Notes under the pieces: generated by a model | The model's database searches: none | What the model saw: only the letters and a program-made list of their open reading frames with translations | What the model was told of the DNA's origin: nothing | Part shown: positions 18,113 through 25,554 of the stretch, in pieces | How the letters are laid out: each line of letters starts with the position of its first letter | How positions within the stretch are numbered: the stretch's first letter is position 1 | Translations under genes and position numbers: made by a program | Assembly (NCBI GenBank): GCA_002435145.1 | Contig: DJLT01000125.1 | Location: 1 to 44,690 of the forward strand | DNA: 44,690 nucleotides | Source: Neptuniibacter sp. UBA6509 | Lineage (GTDB): Bacteria > Pseudomonadota > Gammaproteobacteria > Pseudomonadales > Balneatricaceae | Direction of reading: 5' to 3'

Positions 18113-18997
18113 GTGACCTATATCGGACGTTTTGCCCCATCCCCGACCGGGCCTCTTCATTTTGGCTCTCTTTTGGCTGCACTCGCAAGCTTTCTTGACG
18201 CACGTGCAAATAATGGAAAGTGGCTATTACGGATCGAAAACTTAGATCCCCCCCGAGAACAAGCTGGGATTAAAGAAACATTCCCCAACATTCTAGAAGC
18301 TCACGGTTTATACTGGGACGATGAGCTTTGCTTGCAAAGCGATCGCCATCAACACTATCAAAATGTTCTCGATGCACTACTGTTACAGAAACATGCGTAT
18401 CGCTGTAATTGCTCTCGCAAAGAGATTATCAGCCGATGCGGTAACACCGTTTACGATCAACACTGCCTACTTAGCCCTCCTAACACTGATGCTCAATGCG
18501 CCATCCGCATTAATAGTAAAGATGCTCAAATTTCCTTCACCGATCTGATCCAGGGGCAACAAAATGATCGGCTGAACGATTATGGGGATTTTGTAGTTTA
18601 TCGACGGGATAATCTCTACGCATATCTTTTAGCTGTTGTCGTAGATGATTATTTACAAGGCATCACCCATGTTGTCAGAGGCTCTGATTTACTCAGTGAA
18701 ACCGCACGCCAGATACATCTTCAGCATATATTGAAGCATCCAACCCCAACTTATGCACATATCCCCGTCGCAACAAATAACGAGGGACAAAAACTGAGCA
18801 AACAAACCTTCGCACCTGCACTCGATATTGAAAACCCAGTATCAACGCTCTTCCAAGCACTAAAATTTCTAGACCAGAGGCCACCTCAAGAGTTGCTCAG
18901 CGCTAGTAAAGAGGAAGTCATCAGCTGGGGAATAAACAATTGGAAGATAAGCAGCATTAAAAAAACTATGGCTAAGCCATTACAGGTGAGAACCTAA
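18113..18997 (+). CDS. gluQ: Glutamyl-Q tRNA(Asp) synthetase
   Basis: Truncated glutamyl-tRNA-synthetase paralogue that attaches glutamate to the queuosine base at position 34 of tRNA-Asp. The 294-residue protein keeps only the catalytic domain: GRFAPSPTGPLHFGS (HIGH-type), the zinc-site cysteines in YRCNCSRKEI and YDQHC, VDDYLQGITHVVRGSDLL, and GQKLSKQ (KMSKS-type). It lacks an anticodon-binding domain, which sets it apart from GltX. The start is GTG at 18113 and gives the conserved N-terminus. It follows dksA, as in E. coli. Three bases after its stop begins the small CbrX-like gene, so reading through into cbrXA is likely. Confidence 0.95.
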   Translation: MTYIGRFAPSPTGPLHFGSLLAALASFLDARANNGKWLLRIENLDPPREQAGIKETFPNILEAHGLYWDDELCLQSDRHQHYQNVLDALLLQKHAYRCNCSRKEIISRCGNTVYDQHCLLSPPNTDAQCAIRINSKDAQISFTDLIQGQQNDRLNDYGDFVVYRRDNLYAYLLAVVVDDYLQGITHVVRGSDLLSETARQIHLQHILKHPTPTYAHIPVATNNEGQKLSKQTFAPALDIENPVSTLFQALKFLDQRPPQELLSASKEEVISWGINNWKISSIKKTMAKPLQVRT

Positions 18998-19000
18998 TAC

Positions 19001-19171
19001 GTGTATTTTCATAGGCTTCTACTTCTACTGATTCCAACGCTATATATCGTTGTGCCCCTCATCATAAGTAGCTGGCAAAGTATGAATGCACCTTGGTACT
19101 TACCTTATATTGTATGGGCGGGCGTAATAGTTATCGCTTTTTTGATAGAGAGGAGACGTTCAAATGTTTAG
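19001..19171 (+). CDS. cbrX: Small two-helix membrane protein overlapping cbrA (CbrX-like)
   Basis: A 56-residue frame starting at GTG 19001, three bases past gluQ, and ending at TAG 19169-19171, eight bases inside cbrA. The product has two clear hydrophobic helices (about LLLLLIPTLYIVVPLI and WYLPYIVWAGVIVIAFL) and a basic end ERRRSNV. GGTGAG about ten bases upstream, within gluQ, can serve as its ribosome site; the cbrA site GGAG lies inside its last codons. Pseudomonads carry a similarly placed small membrane protein gene, called cbrX, overlapping cbrA. Identity here is by position, size and topology, not by residue-level comparison. Translational coupling to cbrA is likely. Confidence 0.7.
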   Translation: MYFHRLLLLLIPTLYIVVPLIISSWQSMNAPWYLPYIVWAGVIVIAFLIERRRSNV

Positions 19172-22067
19172 CTTATCCTCCTTAATATTAATCGGTGTTG
19201 CTTATCTGTTATTCCTATTTGGTACAGCGTATTTAACCGAGCGCGGATTACTACCTAAGAAAATTGTTACTCATCCCCTCACCCATGTTCTCTCTATAGG
19301 GGTGTATGCCAGTGTATTAACATTCTATGGGGCATTCAGCTTAGCTCAAGAGTCAGGCTATAGCTTTTTGGGCACCTATTTTGGTGCTGTAATCACTTTT
19401 ATTTTAGGCCCAGCCCTTCTCATTCCTATCCTGCGTATTACACGAACCTACCAGCTAAGTTCGCTCGCGGATCTATTTGCATTTAGATTCCGTAGCGGCG
19501 CTGTCGGCAGCTACACTGCGATATTGTCAGTAATCGCTATATTGCCAATGCTGTCCATTCAAATCCAAGCGGTTACGGATGCCCTATATATTTTGAATGA
19601 TCAGTTCAACGCTGATCAAATAGGCCTAGGCTTTTGCTTTATTATCGCGTTGTTCTCTATTCTTTTTGGTGCAAGGCACGCATCACTTAGAACCAGCCAC
19701 CATGGGCTAATGGTCGCGATGGCAGTTGAATCACTGATTAAGCTGATTGCTTTACTCGTCATAGCGGGATTTGCCATTTTCGGAATATTAGGCGGTATTA
19801 GCGGAACTGAAGCCTTCATTCTAAATAATCCGAAATCGATAGAATCACTACAAGCACCGATCAATAGCGATTCATTCCGCACACTAATTCTGGCTTTTTT
19901 CGCCGCCGCTATAGTGATGCCCCATACCTTTCATATGCTGTTCACTGAAAACGCATCCGATGAAACCATCTACAAAGCAGCTTGGGGAATCCCTCTTTTT
20001 CTATTTTTATTAGCTTGCGCGGTTCCCCCAATTTTATGGGCCGGTGAAGCCCTAGGCGTAGAGGGAGACCCTCAGTTTATTATTTTAAACATTGGCCTTA
20101 TGCTCGACTCAACTTGGCTAATGGTAATTGCATTTATCGGTGGATTATCGGCGGCGACTGGCATCATGATTGTTGCTACCGTATCTATGGCCTCAATGCT
20201 GCAAAATCATGTCATTCTGCCCTTAATACCTAAACCAAAAACTCCACGCTTCTACGCATGGTTACTTTGGCTTAGGCGAATGCTCATTATGGCGATGATA
20301 TTAGGTAGTTACTTATTCTATCGACAGATAGGCAGCAATTTTAATCTGCATCAGATGAGTATCTTATCGGTTATAACTTTCTTACAGTTTCTTCCCGGCT
20401 TACTGGTTACGCTATTTTGGCAGCGAGCCCATCGCCTAGGTGTTATTTTAGGGCTCACAGCAGGTGTCGGTGTTTGGGTATTTAATATGCTTATTCCACT
20501 CTTAAATGCACCTTCGACCCATACTGAACTGTTTAGCCTCGATAACAATTGGGACCACATTGCTATTTTAGCGCTCATGCTCAATGCAATAATTATGACC
20601 GTTGTTTCATTATTTATGACCCAGTCCACAGAGGAATCTCAAGCCGCACAAGCCTGTTTGATTAATGCCTTACAAAAGACAAACCCTAATAACTTACGTG
20701 CATCAAGAATCAGCGATTTCATTGATATGCTTTCCTCCAGGCTCGGGCGCAAAACAGCTGAACGAGAAGTACAAAAAGCGTTAGAAACAATGAATGTTAA
20801 CCCCGATAACATTCGCCCGGTGGACCTTCTTCACTTAAGAAGCATGCTGGAAAACAACCTCTCAGGGCTGTTAGGGCCGATTGAGGCAGCAGCCCTGCTT
20901 GAACCTTTAGATCACCCTAAAGATCCGATGGGTTTTAAAGCAAGCAATGTACATTTAATTGAAAATCAATTGGAAAACTATCAAGTTCAGCTCACTGGGC
21001 TGGCCGCTGAACTCGATGAGATGAGACGTTACCACCGCCTTACCTTACAAAAGCTTCCTGTGGGTATATGTACCTTAGATACAGAAGGACAAGTGCTTTT
21101 TTGGAACCATGAAATGGAACGTTTCACCCATATTGACGGTGCTGAAATCATTGGCAGTAAACTTCACAGCAACCAAAACCCTTGGAGCGCCATCTTAGAA
21201 GAGTTTGCCAACGGCACACTCGATCATCAACTAGGACAAAAGCTAATCATTGATGAACACACCCACTGGTTCAGCTTACACAAATCTATACTGAAAGAAC
21301 GCCGCGATATCGGCATGGTTATATTGTTAGAAGATGAAACCGCTACCAAAAATTTACAAGATAAACTCGCACACAATGAACGGCTTGCATCAATAGGCCG
21401 TTTTGCAGCGGGCGTAGCGCATGAAATTGGTAACCCTGTCACGGGCATCGCCTGCCTAGCGCAAAACCTAAAACTTGAAACAGACAATACCTACATTCTT
21501 GAAACCGGGGATCATATTGTTGATCAAACCAAACGCATCAGCAAAATAGTCCAATCCCTTGTACGCTTTGCCCATGCGGGTCGTCCAGAAGCGGATAGAG
21601 AGCAGCTGCCTGTTTCATTAGCACAGTGTGCTGAAGAAGCTATCCATCTACTCTCCCTCGACAGCCATGGCAAACAGCAACATTATGTTAACCGTATCCC
21701 AGACAATTTAAGAATTCTTGGCGATCCACAACAGATGCAGCAAGTGTTTGTAAACTTGTTACAAAACGCAAGTGATGCATCAAATGACAATGATCATATT
21801 TGGTTAGATGCTACAGAAACTTCGGAGACAGTTAAGCTGACAGTAACCGATGAAGGAAGTGGTATTTCAGATGAATCAAAAATAAGAATCTTTGAACCCT
21901 TCTTCACTACAAAAGACCCAGGCCAAGGTACAGGTTTAGGTCTATCATTAGTGTACAATATTATCGAAGAACATTATGGTAGTATTGATATAACAAGCCC
22001 AGCCAACAACAATCAGAAGAAAGGCACTCAAGTGGCAATAACGCTCCCGCGTCTTAAATGGACATGA
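19164..22067 (+). CDS. cbrA: Sensor histidine kinase CbrA with SLC5-like transporter domain
   Basis: Membrane sensor kinase of 967 residues. Residues 1 to about 490 form a sodium/solute-symporter-like domain with about 13 helices. A STAC-like linker follows (about 495-590, including NNLRASRISDFIDMLSSRLG), then a PAS domain (about 620-720, LPVGICTLDTEGQVLFWN). The HisKA box has His753 in VAHEIGNPVTG, and the HATPase domain has N (LLQNASDAS), G1 (DEGSGIS) and GTGLGLSLVYNI boxes. This is the CbrA architecture known from Pseudomonas, where histidine uptake and kinase activity are linked. All phosphotransfer motifs are intact. It overlaps the cbrX-like frame and precedes cbrB by 41 bases. The signal it senses cannot be read from sequence. 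Confidence 0.93.
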   Translation: MFSLSSLILIGVAYLLFLFGTAYLTERGLLPKKIVTHPLTHVLSIGVYASVLTFYGAFSLAQESGYSFLGTYFGAVITFILGPALLIPILRITRTYQLSSLADLFAFRFRSGAVGSYTAILSVIAILPMLSIQIQAVTDALYILNDQFNADQIGLGFCFIIALFSILFGARHASLRTSHHGLMVAMAVESLIKLIALLVIAGFAIFGILGGISGTEAFILNNPKSIESLQAPINSDSFRTLILAFFAAAIVMPHTFHMLFTENASDETIYKAAWGIPLFLFLLACAVPPILWAGEALGVEGDPQFIILNIGLMLDSTWLMVIAFIGGLSAATGIMIVATVSMASMLQNHVILPLIPKPKTPRFYAWLLWLRRMLIMAMILGSYLFYRQIGSNFNLHQMSILSVITFLQFLPGLLVTLFWQRAHRLGVILGLTAGVGVWVFNMLIPLLNAPSTHTELFSLDNNWDHIAILALMLNAIIMTVVSLFMTQSTEESQAAQACLINALQKTNPNNLRASRISDFIDMLSSRLGRKTAEREVQKALETMNVNPDNIRPVDLLHLRSMLENNLSGLLGPIEAAALLEPLDHPKDPMGFKASNVHLIENQLENYQVQLTGLAAELDEMRRYHRLTLQKLPVGICTLDTEGQVLFWNHEMERFTHIDGAEIIGSKLHSNQNPWSAILEEFANGTLDHQLGQKLIIDEHTHWFSLHKSILKERRDIGMVILLEDETATKNLQDKLAHNERLASIGRFAAGVAHEIGNPVTGIACLAQNLKLETDNTYILETGDHIVDQTKRISKIVQSLVRFAHAGRPEADREQLPVSLAQCAEEAIHLLSLDSHGKQQHYVNRIPDNLRILGDPQQMQQVFVNLLQNASDASNDNDHIWLDATETSETVKLTVTDEGSGISDESKIRIFEPFFTTKDPGQGTGLGLSLVYNIIEEHYGSIDITSPANNNQKKGTQVAITLPRLKWT

Positions 22068-22108
22068 GATCCTAATAACGCGAGAAAGCTGGATATAAGG
22101 TAGAGCTT

Positions 22109-23494
22109 ATGAGCCGAATTCTGATTGTAGAAGACGAAACAATTATACGAGCAGCCCTACGCAGGCTACTAGAAAAACATCACTTTAACGTCGATGACGC
22201 AGCATCTGTTGATGATGCAACCAGCCGCTTTAAACTTGATGATTTCAATCTCATCATCAGTGATCTTCGCTTACCCGGCGCACCCGGAACAGACCTTATC
22301 GGTTTAGCTAAATCAGTTCCTGTTTTAATAATGACCAGTTACGCTAGCCTTCGCTCCGCGGTAGATGCGATGAAGCTAGGCGCAGTTGATTATATTGCAA
22401 AGCCATTTGATCATGACGAGATGCTCTCATCAGTAGAAAGCATCCTTGCTGGCAATATTGAACATGCTACGCCCCAAGCCGATTCATCCTCATCACTGAC
22501 ACTGGGCACTACTCAAATTTTTGGTTCTTGCCGCCCGATGCTAGAGTTAGCCAAACGCATTCAAAAAGTTGCAAAAACTAACGCGACTGTCCTTATCCAA
22601 GGTGAATCAGGTACCGGCAAAGAGTTGGCAGCTCGCTCGATTCATGAACAAAGTAATCGTGCTCATATCCCAATGATTTCCGTCAACTGCGCAGCTATAC
22701 CAGAAAGTTTGATCGAGTCAGAACTTTTTGGTCATGAAAAAGGTGCCTTTACCGGCGCCAGCAGTGGCCGCACAGGTCTTTTAGAAGCCGCTGACGGCGG
22801 TACACTTTTCCTTGATGAGATAGGTGAGCTCCCGCTAGAAGCTCAAGCTCGTCTACTTCGTTTTCTTCAAGAGGGTGAAATACGAAGAGTAGGCTCTGTT
22901 CAATCGAAAAAAGTCGATGTCCGTCTTATCGCCGCCACTCATCGTAATTTGAAAGAACTCGCGAAACAAAATGAGTTCCGTGAAGATTTATACTATCGCT
23001 TGTACGTTATGGAACTTGTTATTCCTCCTTTACGTGAACGTGAGAACGATATAATTGAAATAGCCAACAAGATGCTGATAAACGCTTGTCGACGTATGAA
23101 TGTCAGCACCCATAGCTTTGCCCCTGATGCGATAAAAGCAATGGCTATCTACCCTTGGCCAGGTAATGTTCGAGAACTAGAAAACGCTATTGAACGTGCG
23201 GTTATTTTAACCGAAGGCCCAATAATTACCTTAGATACACTTGGATTGGATATTCCGAAAACAGCTTTAGAAACTCTTGAGGCTCAGTTAACAGAGATAG
23301 CCCCTCAAACCAGCACCGCACTTGCCCAAGAGGAACAAAGTAACTTATCGCTGGATGATTACTTCCAACGTTTTGTAGTAGAAAACCAAGATAAACTAAG
23401 CGAAACAGAGCTCGCAAAAAAACTTGGCGTCAGCCGTAAATGCCTGTGGGAGCGGCGTCAAAAACTAGGAATACCACGGAAGGCTAAAAAGTAG
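22109..23494 (+). CDS. cbrB: Sigma-54-dependent response regulator CbrB
   Basis: NtrC-class activator of 461 residues, partner of CbrA. The receiver domain has the phospho-acceptor Asp52 (SDLRLPG) and Lys98 (AKPF). The AAA+ domain has Walker A GESGTGK (165-171), the sigma-54 contact loop GAFTGA (212-217) and the Walker B block GTLFLDEIGEL. A Fis-type helix-turn-helix closes the protein (SETELAKKLGVSRKCLWERR). All parts needed for activation at -24/-12 promoters are present. The 623-base gap downstream contains repeated GTAACA half-sites, a sigma-54 promoter and a predicted CrcZ-type RNA, the main known target of CbrB in pseudomonads. Confidence 0.94.
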   Translation: MSRILIVEDETIIRAALRRLLEKHHFNVDDAASVDDATSRFKLDDFNLIISDLRLPGAPGTDLIGLAKSVPVLIMTSYASLRSAVDAMKLGAVDYIAKPFDHDEMLSSVESILAGNIEHATPQADSSSSLTLGTTQIFGSCRPMLELAKRIQKVAKTNATVLIQGESGTGKELAARSIHEQSNRAHIPMISVNCAAIPESLIESELFGHEKGAFTGASSGRTGLLEAADGGTLFLDEIGELPLEAQARLLRFLQEGEIRRVGSVQSKKVDVRLIAATHRNLKELAKQNEFREDLYYRLYVMELVIPPLRERENDIIEIANKMLINACRRMNVSTHSFAPDAIKAMAIYPWPGNVRELENAIERAVILTEGPIITLDTLGLDIPKTALETLEAQLTEIAPQTSTALAQEEQSNLSLDDYFQRFVVENQDKLSETELAKKLGVSRKCLWERRQKLGIPRKAKK

Positions 23495-23535
23495 CAGACA
23501 TCAGTATTAGACCATAGTTTTAGAAGAGATTAAGA

Positions 23536-23621
23536 GTAACGATATAGGTAACAAACGGGTAACAAGTTGGGTGTTACCTTACTACCCACAAACTAGTACC
23601 TAAGCGTAACAAGCAGTAACA
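23536..23621 (+). promoter_or_regulatory. GTAACA half-site array, predicted CbrB binding region
   Basis: Half-sites: GTAACG 23536, GTAACA 23548, 23559, 23606 and 23616, and the inverted TGTTAC 23572. Neighbouring starts are 10-13 bases apart within each group, close to one helical turn. The array lies 75-160 bases upstream of the -24 element, the usual place for an enhancer. TGTTAC/GTAACA half-sites are those described for CbrB in Pseudomonas, but the spacing and order here differ from the published TGTTAC-spacer-GTAACA layout, as I recall it. Confidence 0.6.
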
Positions 23622-23694
23622 AAAGCAACACCTAAGTAGCCATTATTTTTTAGTGGATTTTTTAACATGCTGTTTTACAACAATTTTTAAAAAG

Positions 23695-23710
23695 TGGCAC
23701 ACCAAATGCT
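23695..23710 (+). promoter_or_regulatory. Sigma-54 (-24/-12) promoter of the crcZ-like RNA
   Basis: TGGCAC at 23695-23700 and TGC at 23707-23709, with the invariant GG and GC exactly 12 bases apart. The only visible departure from TGGCACN5TTGC is A for the first T of the -12 box. Transcription would begin near G23721. It lies downstream of the GTAACA array and of a sigma-54 activator gene. Confidence 0.75.
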
Positions 23711-23720
23711 TACTATTGGC

Positions 23721-23900
23721 GTGTAAACAAATAAGAAGCAAGCTTCTAAAAGCTAGACCACTAATAAAAATAAAAACTGGAATTAGATTTTAAGAAGCAC
23801 CCGCCTCGAATAAAAATAAAAATGAGGTTTAGAAAAGCTGGTCGTAGCGAAGTTGTAACGATCAAAATGCTCTTAGAAAAACAACAATAAGCTAAGTAAT
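23721..23900 (+). ncRNA. crcZ: CrcZ/CrcY-type small RNA (Hfq/Crc decoy)
   Basis: Predicted RNA between cbrB and pcnB, the crcZ position in pseudomonads. It carries AANAANAA motifs at 23730-23737, 23763-23776 (two overlapping), 23809-23822 (two overlapping) and 23880-23890 (two overlapping). Three of the four clusters lie in loops: an imperfect stem 23753-23760/23778-23786 around the second, CCTCG 23804-23808 with TGAGG 23823-23827 around the third, and CTTAG 23872-23876 with CTAAG 23892-23896 around the fourth. A further stem, TGGTCGT 23839-23845 with ACGATCA 23858-23864, separates the last two. The function expected from the family is to titrate Hfq/Crc and relieve catabolite repression. The 3' end is unresolved: no clear intrinsic terminator is visible before pcnB, so the end given is just past the last stem. 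Confidence 0.72.
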
Positions 23901-24117
23901 AGCCGTTGTTACCTGAGATGCGATCAGCTAATCATTCCCCCATATTCAAATTCAAACAAGCCAACGCTCCCATTACACCATTCAACAGTGGTATGATTGC
24001 GCACCTAATTTGATTAGGGATAGCGGCATCAAGGTTGTCAGAAAGAAACACCTCCCTTGTTAACAAGCCAGCATATACCCTTTCTAGATATTCAATTTGT
24101 ATTAATAGGCACTTCAA

Positions 24118-25554
24118 TTGCTTAAAACCATTAGCAACGCACTGTGTAAAGTATTTAGCAGTAAACCGAAAGATCAGAGCACAGACACGGATGAGACACC
24201 CTCAAACTCTGGCATGATTACGGTTGCTAAAAAACGCCTGATTACAGAAGATCAGCATAAAATTTCTCGCCGGTATCTAGATGATAATGCTCTCAAGGTT
24301 GCATATCGCCTGCAAGATGCAGGGTATGAAGGCTACTTAGTGGGCGGGTGTATCCGCGACCTACTACTTGATAAAAAACCTAAAGATTTTGATGTAGCCA
24401 CTAATGCGCACCCAGAAGAAGCTGCTGAGTTATTTCGCCGCGGGCGCCTGATTGGTCGTCGTTTTAAGCTAGTACATGTACGCTATGGCCGAGATCTAAT
24501 TGAAGTTGCCACCTTTCGAGCAAGCCATGATAGTCAGACTGAAGATGGCGAAAACGAACATGGAAAACAGTGCGATAGCGGCCTAATTCTGCGAGATAAC
24601 GTCTACGGCACGATTGAAGATGATGCTCTACGTCGCGATTTCACAGTAAATGCACTTTATTACTGCCCAAAAGATCACTGTGTCTATGATTTTGCTAATG
24701 GCTACGAAGACCTGAAGAAAGGCGTGCTTCGTATGATTGGCGATCCAGACTCCCGTTACAAAGAAGATCCCGTTCGCATGCTGCGAGCTGCTCGTTTTGC
24801 TGCAAAGCTTGATTTCACCATTGATGCTGCTTCTGAAGACCCTATTCGCCCATTAGCACCCATGCTAAAACGAATAGCGCCCGCTCGCTTATTTGATGAA
24901 GCACTTAAACTTTTACAATCAGGTCATGCAGTTCAATCTTATAAACAGTTACAGCGCCTTGAACTATTTGAACCGCTGTTTCCTCAAGTTCAAGTGCTGC
25001 TTGATGACCCTCATCTTAATGTACCTTTAGAAAGCCTTATTCAAAACGCATTCAAGAATACCGATCGCCGTTTAGCTCAACGTAAGAGTGTGACCCCTGC
25101 ATTTTTGTTTGCAGCGATACTTTGGTATCCGACACAACTGCGGATGCAAACACTGATACGAGAGCAACGCATGCCTCCTTTGCCTGCGCTACACGAAGCA
25201 GCTAATCAGGTTCTATCTGAACAAGTGCGTTCGACAGCGATCCCACGTCGCTTCTCAACATCGATTCGCGAGATATGGGAGATGCAACTACGCCTGCCTC
25301 GCCGTCAAGGGCACCGAGCTCTGCGTTTAATGGAGATGCCTAGATTCAGAGCCGCATATGATCTACTTCTTCTACGTGAAAGCAGCGGCGAACAGCTAGA
25401 TGGACTTGGCCAATGGTGGACTGACTTCCAAAATGCTAACCCAGAATCCAAAGACAATATGGTAAATAGCTTGGGTAAAGGCGATAAACCTCGCCGTCCT
25501 CGCCGTAAAAAAACCAAAAAACCTCGTCAAGAGCGTTCAGGTAATGACAGCTAG
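24118..25554 (+). CDS. pcnB: Poly(A) polymerase I
   Basis: Adds 3' poly(A) tails to RNA, promoting decay. The 478-residue protein has the nucleotidyltransferase signature LVGGCIRDLLLDKKPKDFDVATNAHPEE (metal aspartates in DFD), a second block RRDFTVNALYY, and RFAAKLDF of the RNA-binding neck. The C-terminus is strongly basic (RRPRRKKTKKPRQER), as is usual for PcnB rather than CCA-adding enzymes. The start is uncertain: TTG at 24118 gives a conserved-looking MLK beginning with a weak site, while ATG 24214 would remove 32 residues. Its last 11 bases overlap folK. As in Pseudomonas it follows crcZ, and read-through from the RNA promoter is possible since no terminator is visible. Confidence 0.94.
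   Translation: MLKTISNALCKVFSSKPKDQSTDTDETPSNSGMITVAKKRLITEDQHKISRRYLDDNALKVAYRLQDAGYEGYLVGGCIRDLLLDKKPKDFDVATNAHPEEAAELFRRGRLIGRRFKLVHVRYGRDLIEVATFRASHDSQTEDGENEHGKQCDSGLILRDNVYGTIEDDALRRDFTVNALYYCPKDHCVYDFANGYEDLKKGVLRMIGDPDSRYKEDPVRMLRAARFAAKLDFTIDAASEDPIRPLAPMLKRIAPARLFDEALKLLQSGHAVQSYKQLQRLELFEPLFPQVQVLLDDPHLNVPLESLIQNAFKNTDRRLAQRKSVTPAFLFAAILWYPTQLRMQTLIREQRMPPLPALHEAANQVLSEQVRSTAIPRRFSTSIREIWEMQLRLPRRQGHRALRLMEMPRFRAAYDLLLLRESSGEQLDGLGQWWTDFQNANPESKDNMVNSLGKGDKPRRPRRKKTKKPRQERSGNDS

Follow-up and report, generated by a model that had tools for sequence, protein, structure and literature searches.

The 44,690-nucleotide stretch analyzed here (the window), contig DJLT01000125.1 of Neptuniibacter sp. 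UBA6509 (assembly GCA_002435145.1), very probably carries a complete CbrX–CbrA–CbrB–CrcZ locus, to judge from its sequence and from comparison with related genomes. In Pseudomonas this circuit links a nutrient-responsive two-component system to a small RNA (CrcZ) that sequesters Hfq and Crc. The circuit is of a known kind in a new place, and the newer part is the exchange of promoters and the changes in copy number found among relatives. The window (contig C126 of our set) belongs to a Neptuniibacter-like genome of 3.88 Mb that is 91% complete; the closest named relatives of its CbrA are those of Neptuniibacter (81–83% identical), a genus assigned to the Oceanospirillaceae by NCBI taxonomy. 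An earlier reading made by a model from the letters and open reading frames alone (the sequence-only reading) had proposed such a circuit in a probable Oceanospirillaceae genome, and that placement agrees with the taxonomy.

The genes of the locus all lie on the + strand. The small peptide gene cbrX (19001..19169, GTG start) overlaps at its 3' end the start of cbrA (19164..22067), which encodes a transporter-STAC-PAS-histidine kinase; cbrB (22109..23494) encodes an NtrC-class response regulator, and pcnB (24118..25554, TTG start; TIGR01942 above cut-off) is the downstream flank that marks the locus. The gap between cbrB and pcnB is gene-free and holds a promoter followed by an A-rich RNA locus. 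Open reading frame coordinates and family searches confirmed the gene order described by the sequence-only reading, including the A-rich stretch before pcnB. The best phmmer match of CbrX is chain X of the structure 10ed (58 residues, E 1.7e-8), and a CbrX-like match, weak or partial in some cases, adjoins cbrA in all 30 cbrA loci examined. CbrA likewise finds its best match in chain A of 10ed, over residues 2-580 (E 1.9e-156). We take 10ed to be the CbrXA structure of a 2026 preprint (the search output does not state it). K193 of the window CbrA aligns with K196 of chain A, a residue singled out in that preprint (PMC13022988; the papers cited here by such accessions are drawn on in part). CbrA carries HEIGNP at residue 753, an N box, DEGSGIS, and GTGLGL, and a domain search matched PAS, HisKA, and HATPase, with no transporter family among the reported domains; the claim of a transporter-fused kinase with intact H and ATP boxes is borne out by these motifs together with the 10ed chain A match. 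CbrB, as had also been claimed, is an NtrC-class regulator, with receiver and AAA+ domains (Pfam Response_reg and Sigma54_activat), GESGTGKE, and GAFTGA at residue 212, and its identity to the upstream protein is 63-65% at 11 of 12 loci positive for the Rfam CrcZ model. Membership as a CbrAB two-component system is supported by CbrA orthology, the overlapping cbrX, and the adjacent GAFTGA-bearing CbrB. A genome search for crc, proposed as a check by the same reading, found the gene on contig C14 beside a pyrE-type gene (a label from sequence rather than from a family search), with P. aeruginosa Crc (4jg3, 275 bits) as the best PDB match, consistent with orthology to Pseudomonas Crc; crc, hfq, and rpoN are all present in the genome, away from the cbr locus. 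Read by eye from the alignment, Crc seems to have CGTTN where GD-N, the exonuclease III catalytic motif, would stand.

The promoter in the gap, TGGCACACCAAATGCT at 23695..23710 (+ strand), fits the −24/−12 search pattern exactly and is the sole match with zero mismatches among 43 in the window with at most two, a number that does not exceed the chance expectation of 45.8. The score of the gap promoter was reached in none of 100 shuffles. Its GG-N10-GC spacing, counted from the sequence, predicts a transcription start near 23721. A second −24/−12-like match at 24107-24122 (AGGCACTTCAATTGCT) was rejected, as it overlaps the pcnB TTG start and its spacing differs in nine other aligned sequences of the genus. 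Upstream of the promoter lie a TGTTAC site at 23572..23577 and two GTAACA sites at 23606 and 23616 (23606..23621), all on the + strand, which resemble the F1 and the R1 and R2 subsites used by CbrB of P. putida and mutated there (PMC6296734). The TGTTAC site stands at the same promoter distance in Rfam-positive loci, and the GTAACA pair is kept in 10 aligned copies from the Neptuniibacter genus. The element GTTACCTTACTACC (23573-23586), which extends the TGTTAC site and includes a TACTACC part, is exact in nine of these 10 copies.

Comparison within the family shows how far these features are conserved. Among 116 family genomes, 92 gave a cbrA match (E ≤ 1e-80) and 115 a pcnB match (E ≤ 1e-60), and the stretches upstream of pcnB were compared in 113 (112 relatives and the window; G052, G082, and G093 were left out). 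cbrB lies upstream of pcnB in 91 of these, and 88 of the 91 gaps hold a sigma-54 site and an array of the motif AANAANAA at the same spacing; in most of them the clusters stand at about +30, +65, +110, and +180, counted from the T of TGGCAC. When the sigma-54 site was scored without use of the A-rich motifs, the best site scored at least 19 of a maximum of 21.5 in the same number of gaps and at most 16.5 in the remaining three (G036–G038). A combined scan, which demanded a sigma-54 site and at least five motif starts, and of which activator sites, spacing, and structure are independent, gave 101 copies in 89 genomes of 13 genera (79 single, eight double, two triple); two of 103 candidates (in G035 and G044) had been dropped as false, having GGTAAC instead of GGCA. 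A forward activator site at −140 to −98 together with a reverse site at −95 to −50 accompanies 94 of the 100 copies having 200 nt of upstream sequence, with peaks at −123/−124 and −79/−80, compared with 0.22 sites expected per copy in shuffled sequence (mean over the 103 candidates). Counted from that T, the activator sites of eleven of the 12 Rfam-positive loci lie near −124, −103, and −81; the other locus (L232), with neither cbrB nor pcnB nearby, has them at −123 and −88. Among the 22 loci without cbrB, a sigma-54-type copy was found only in G110, whose contig is cut; both the sigma-54 site and the A-rich array are absent before pcnB in 14 genomes of genus g13 and in G019. The correctly spaced promoter of the sequence-only reading accordingly stands, as a sigma-54 promoter with CbrB subsites of the CrcZ kind recognized from sequence only. 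That reading had named as a ground against itself that close relatives might lack the motifs at this place, and the 88 gaps show otherwise.

The RNA predicted to follow the promoter has a core at 23721..23929 (+ strand), defined by its A-rich clusters, fold, covariation, and closing stem. AANAANAA begins 10 times within 23721–23930, where local dinucleotide shuffles give 2.4 (equalled in eight of 2000), and is unenriched over the whole window (66 against 57 expected). Its clusters lie at about 23726-23738, 23763-23778, 23808-23822, and 23880-23891; the proposed A-rich RNA locus is there, and its core runs past 23900, where the earlier piece of sequence had ended, to about 23929. The window RNA folds with a z-score of −3.4, placing three of the clusters in loops and the first in a 5' tail. 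Across 63 aligned copies three helices covary, with double changes in all 14 pairs and pairing in 78.4% of cells; doubly changed cells number 108, where shuffles give 47, and the score drops steeply when the structure is slid along the alignment. Helix 2 pairs in just 57% of cells, and RNAalifold alone recovered one of the three helices, the other two being picked by column pairing, so that the structure was chosen on the alignment on which it was scored. A long-range closing stem, predicted to pair 23836..23846 with 23919..23929, scores a mean of 26.6 against 15.9 for shuffles and beats all 20 of its own shuffles in 81 of 101 copies, those of genus g16 being about equal to theirs. The best-conserved parts of the RNA are the unpaired AANAANAA loops. 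After the stem comes a C/T-rich tail without a U-run, seen at 23930-23960 in the window and in many relatives; the 3' end of the RNA may perhaps be of a Rho type or arise by processing. Position between cbrB and pcnB and several A-rich Hfq/Crc-type motifs in loops are both features of CrcZ.

By analogy with Pseudomonas, the CbrA transporter-kinase would respond to nutrient state and phosphorylate CbrB, which, bound to the TGTTAC/GTAACA sites some 80–125 nt before the −24 box, would drive sigma-54 polymerase to make the short RNA; the A-rich loops would then bind Hfq, with Crc, and free catabolic mRNAs from translational repression. What is carried over from that system is the signal, the phosphorelay, transcription, binding, and effect; gene order, protein orthology, conservation of promoter, activator sites, and RNA structure, and the presence of crc, hfq, and rpoN are observed; the proposal that the same catabolite-control logic operates here appears well supported by this comparison. 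CbrAB and the RNA could be real and the RNA could still act chiefly through base pairing or on another protein, and not by titration of Hfq and Crc. We regard this as unlikely: conservation is highest in the unpaired AANAANAA loops, the genome has both crc and hfq, and such A-rich stretches are described in P. aeruginosa as binding the distal site of Hfq (PMC4063720).

Copies outside the usual position bear on a second alternative, in which there is no independent trans-acting decoy and the conserved sequence serves pcnB as a cis-acting leader or forms the tail of the cbrB mRNA. The copy detected does sit upstream of pcnB in most genomes (a genome-wide search covered 30 family genomes), and the window gap lacks a recognizable intrinsic terminator. 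Ten genomes (G025, G028–G034, G104, G105) nevertheless have two or three tandem copies in the cbrB–pcnB gap (loci L086 of G029, L071 of G105, L110, L111, L087, L106, L100, L082, L108, and L064), each with a −24/−12 site of its own and one or more TGTTAC or GTAAC sites; TGTTAC is missing from three of the copies, one in G025 and two in G105. The genome-wide search with our covariance model (named R1) further revealed nine dispersed copies, three each in G037 and G038, two in G029, and one in G035, the last two genomes having these in addition to the gap. All nine have TGTTAC and GTAAC upstream and eight a full sigma-54 site, that on contig C19 of G037 having a degraded −24 element. G037 and G038 have no gap copy, and the search found no dispersed copy in G036 (71% complete). 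A further locus of G038 (L186, C21:25720), beside a full dispersed copy, gave a weak R1 match with A-rich hairpins and no sigma-54 site. With copies that stand apart from pcnB and bring their own promoters, a cis leader is very improbable, and a separate decoy is the reading we retain. That the promoter and motifs are chance features of an A-rich gap, whose 43% A gives the roughly 2.4 motifs expected, is refuted by the comparison, given the fixed spacing in 88 of 91 gaps across 13 genera, the covariation, and the lack of both features before pcnB in the 14 g13 genomes and G019.

Homology to CrcZ was pursued with model R1, built without genera g3, g7, g9, g14, and g16 and genome G064 and with the window copy included; it scores the window RNA, which is in the model, at 89 bits. 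On held-out loci at E ≤ 0.001 it found G064 (89 bits), five g9 loci (55–75 bits), G035, g3, g14, and five of seven g16 loci, the other two giving E 0.04 and 0.18; among loci upstream of pcnB it gave no match in g13, G019, or G036–G038. It matched 15 of 16 named loci with a cbrA match, the miss (L049) being a truncated locus, and all 12 Rfam-positive loci tried, each in the right place. The covariance-model search of the gap in relatives suggested by the sequence-only reading recovered most held-out lineages. Weak R1 matches on G104 C17, at position 703971 of G025, and on G000 C96 were rejected, having neither promoter nor array; other weak matches lie in G068, G035, G037, G109, and once more in G038. 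That reading had also expected an RNA too diverged for a simple similarity search, and Rfam searches over the window at gathering score and over the gap at E ≤ 10 returned nothing relevant. The Rfam CrcZ model (RF01675) does not reach its gathering score here, and the RNA is called CrcZ-like because its homology rests on R1 and synteny; comparison of coordinates places 16 sub-threshold RF01675 matches, spread over 15 of the 116 family genomes, on the RNA itself. Across 390 genomes of the order, R1 at E ≤ 0.001 marked 42, of which 17 belong to the same family and 25 to six others; 13 of these outside loci were inspected, with pcnB nearby in 10, cbrB in seven, and a sigma-54 pattern match in 10. 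RF01675 at E ≤ 0.01 marked 84; the 19 over cut-off belong to families f21 (which we infer to be the Pseudomonadaceae) and f2, and the two models mark the same place in G122, G345, and G465. R1 matches 11 genomes of family f27; at the three f27 loci inspected (L220, L223, L227), pcnB is preceded by a sigma-54 site and an A-rich RNA, with a CbrB-like regulator that shows only 45-47% identity.

The decoy RNA seems, from these sequences, to be more durable than its CbrAB input. No cbrA match was found in 24 genomes, namely six of g9, 15 of g13, G019, G064, and G056, the last probably through assembly, because cbrB and an RNA copy are present; four of the g13 genomes are counted from the total, and in the others cbrB was looked for at the locus. 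A tree of a single gene, PcnB (25 rows, midpoint root), places G064 within the Neptuniibacter genus (100/99), g9 with g5, g8, and g12 (99/98), and G019 and g13 beside g10 (96/88), with g3 and g14 falling with the outgroup, placements that indicate three separate losses. In the six g9 genomes and G064 (L143, L138, L127, L141, L132, L198, L061) the RNA body is kept with no cbrAB at the locus and, within 250 nt upstream, no strict sigma-54 site and no TGTTAC or GTAACA; a bare GG-N10-GC occurs upstream in three of the six g9 genomes, once at −34. All six g9 loci have instead a sigma-70-like promoter, TTGAA(A/C/T), 17 nt, and TATA(T/G)T, whose end lies 1–3 nt short of the modelled start of the RNA and 8–10 nt before the first AACAACAA. 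A scan of G047 found three such sites against 0.7 expected, two overlapping at the promoter place and one on the other strand, and the case for the g9 promoter is its conservation in six of six. The corresponding position before the G064 RNA, with its end at like distances, holds TTGCTA, 18 nt, and TATAGT, a site no more frequent than chance for the region (one found, 0.8 expected), so that position is what speaks for it. rpoN, hfq, and crc are present in all seven genomes. The promoter spacer of G049 also holds an inverted repeat, GTGAC/GTCAC.

In genus g13 the candidate RNA is a compact one, which may descend from crcZ. A gluQ-type gene lies directly before pcnB in all 14 g13 stretches and in G019; in the window a gene of this type (labelled from sequence rather than from a family search) lies 5' of cbrX at 18113–18997 (+ strand). 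A search with a 40-nt pattern derived from weak R1 matches found a compact RNA, at a locus away from pcnB, as one copy in 12 of 15 g13 genomes, including all eight of the better ones, and none in a reversed control. Ten aligned copies (L244-L253) share two A-rich motifs, a conserved promoter-like block (TATTAGAC and TA-TAT), and an intrinsic terminator, the latter scanned in one copy. On balance we consider it probable that the decoy is the conserved element of Crc/Hfq control and CbrAB its exchangeable input, with g9 and G064 having moved the RNA to a vegetative sigma-70-type promoter and g13 having a compact RNA. Close crc matches occur, as read from the match rows, in 109 of the 116 family genomes; G044, G110, and G111 have only a distant exonuclease match, and G019, G045, G091, and G102 gave no crc match. 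G102 carries the compact RNA, and G019 has neither a crc match nor an RNA of the crcZ or compact type.

Several results weigh against this account of the RNA as a CrcZ-type decoy. RF01675 is over cut-off in none of the 116 family genomes, and R1 gives low scores, 15.8–29.2 bits (E 1.6e-4 to 0.14), on the loci positive in Rfam. A consensus terminator scan found no intrinsic terminator on the + strand of the window gap. G036–G038 have cbrB and crc and yet no RNA in the gap (two of them carry dispersed copies). crc is retained in cbrA-less genomes, and conversely G044, G045, G110, and G111 (87–94% complete) carry the RNA without a close crc match. RNA and crc would consequently not be strictly coupled, unless the draft genomes miss crc; the five RNA-bearing exceptions (these four and G102) are less complete.

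The locus resembles CbrXAB–CrcZ of Pseudomonas and Azotobacter, as described in the parts consulted of PMC8871633, PMC6591292, and PMC6296734, in gene order, overlapping cbrX, transporter-fused kinase, NtrC-class regulator, sigma-54 site, F and R subsites in nearly the same register, A-rich RNA before pcnB, and possession of Crc and Hfq. It differs in that the P. aeruginosa CrcZ is given as 407 nt with six A-rich stretches (PMC4063720), whereas the core here is about 210 nt with four clusters, finds no Rfam-model match in the window, has a closing stem around its 3' half, and occurs in tandem in some relatives. Extra CbrB-type copies elsewhere in the genome recall the Pseudomonas paralogues CrcY and CrcX (PMC8871633), but here they stand in tandem in the gap of 10 genomes or are dispersed, and the dispersed ones take the place of the gap copy in G037 and G038. 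The SLC5-STAC kinase architecture is shared with CrbS/CrbR, whose regulator is, however, described as LuxR-type and acting on acetate genes (PMC5715377), in contrast to the NtrC-class, GAFTGA-bearing regulator of the window. CbrAB has been said to be exclusive to Pseudomonads or the Pseudomonadaceae (PMC6296734 and PMC8871633; 2018, 2022), and a review, in the part consulted, builds an evolutionary argument on this exclusivity. A study of Crc in Acinetobacter, in its available part, deferred small RNAs and CbrAB to later work (PMC8312277), and cbrAB transcripts are reported in ocean metatranscriptomes with no taxon assigned to them in the parts covered (PMC5073097). No title or opening of an abstract describing a CbrAB/CrcZ circuit outside the Pseudomonadaceae was found in a search spanning Halomonas, Oceanospirillales-type groups, Acinetobacter, Nitrincolaceae, Neptuniibacter, Amphritea, and others, a mostly non-subscription literature in which absence is not proof.

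The locus is found in most sampled genomes of a marine family, with traces of the RNA in further families of the order, and because of this spread carbon-catabolite control by an Hfq/Crc decoy is likely to be older and wider than described. If the exchange of promoters is as proposed, the decoy would be made constitutively, or would have come under new control, in the lineages that lost CbrAB. Genomes that keep the RNA without CbrAB would then serve as a natural experiment for asking if a titrating RNA has to be synthesized under nutrient control.

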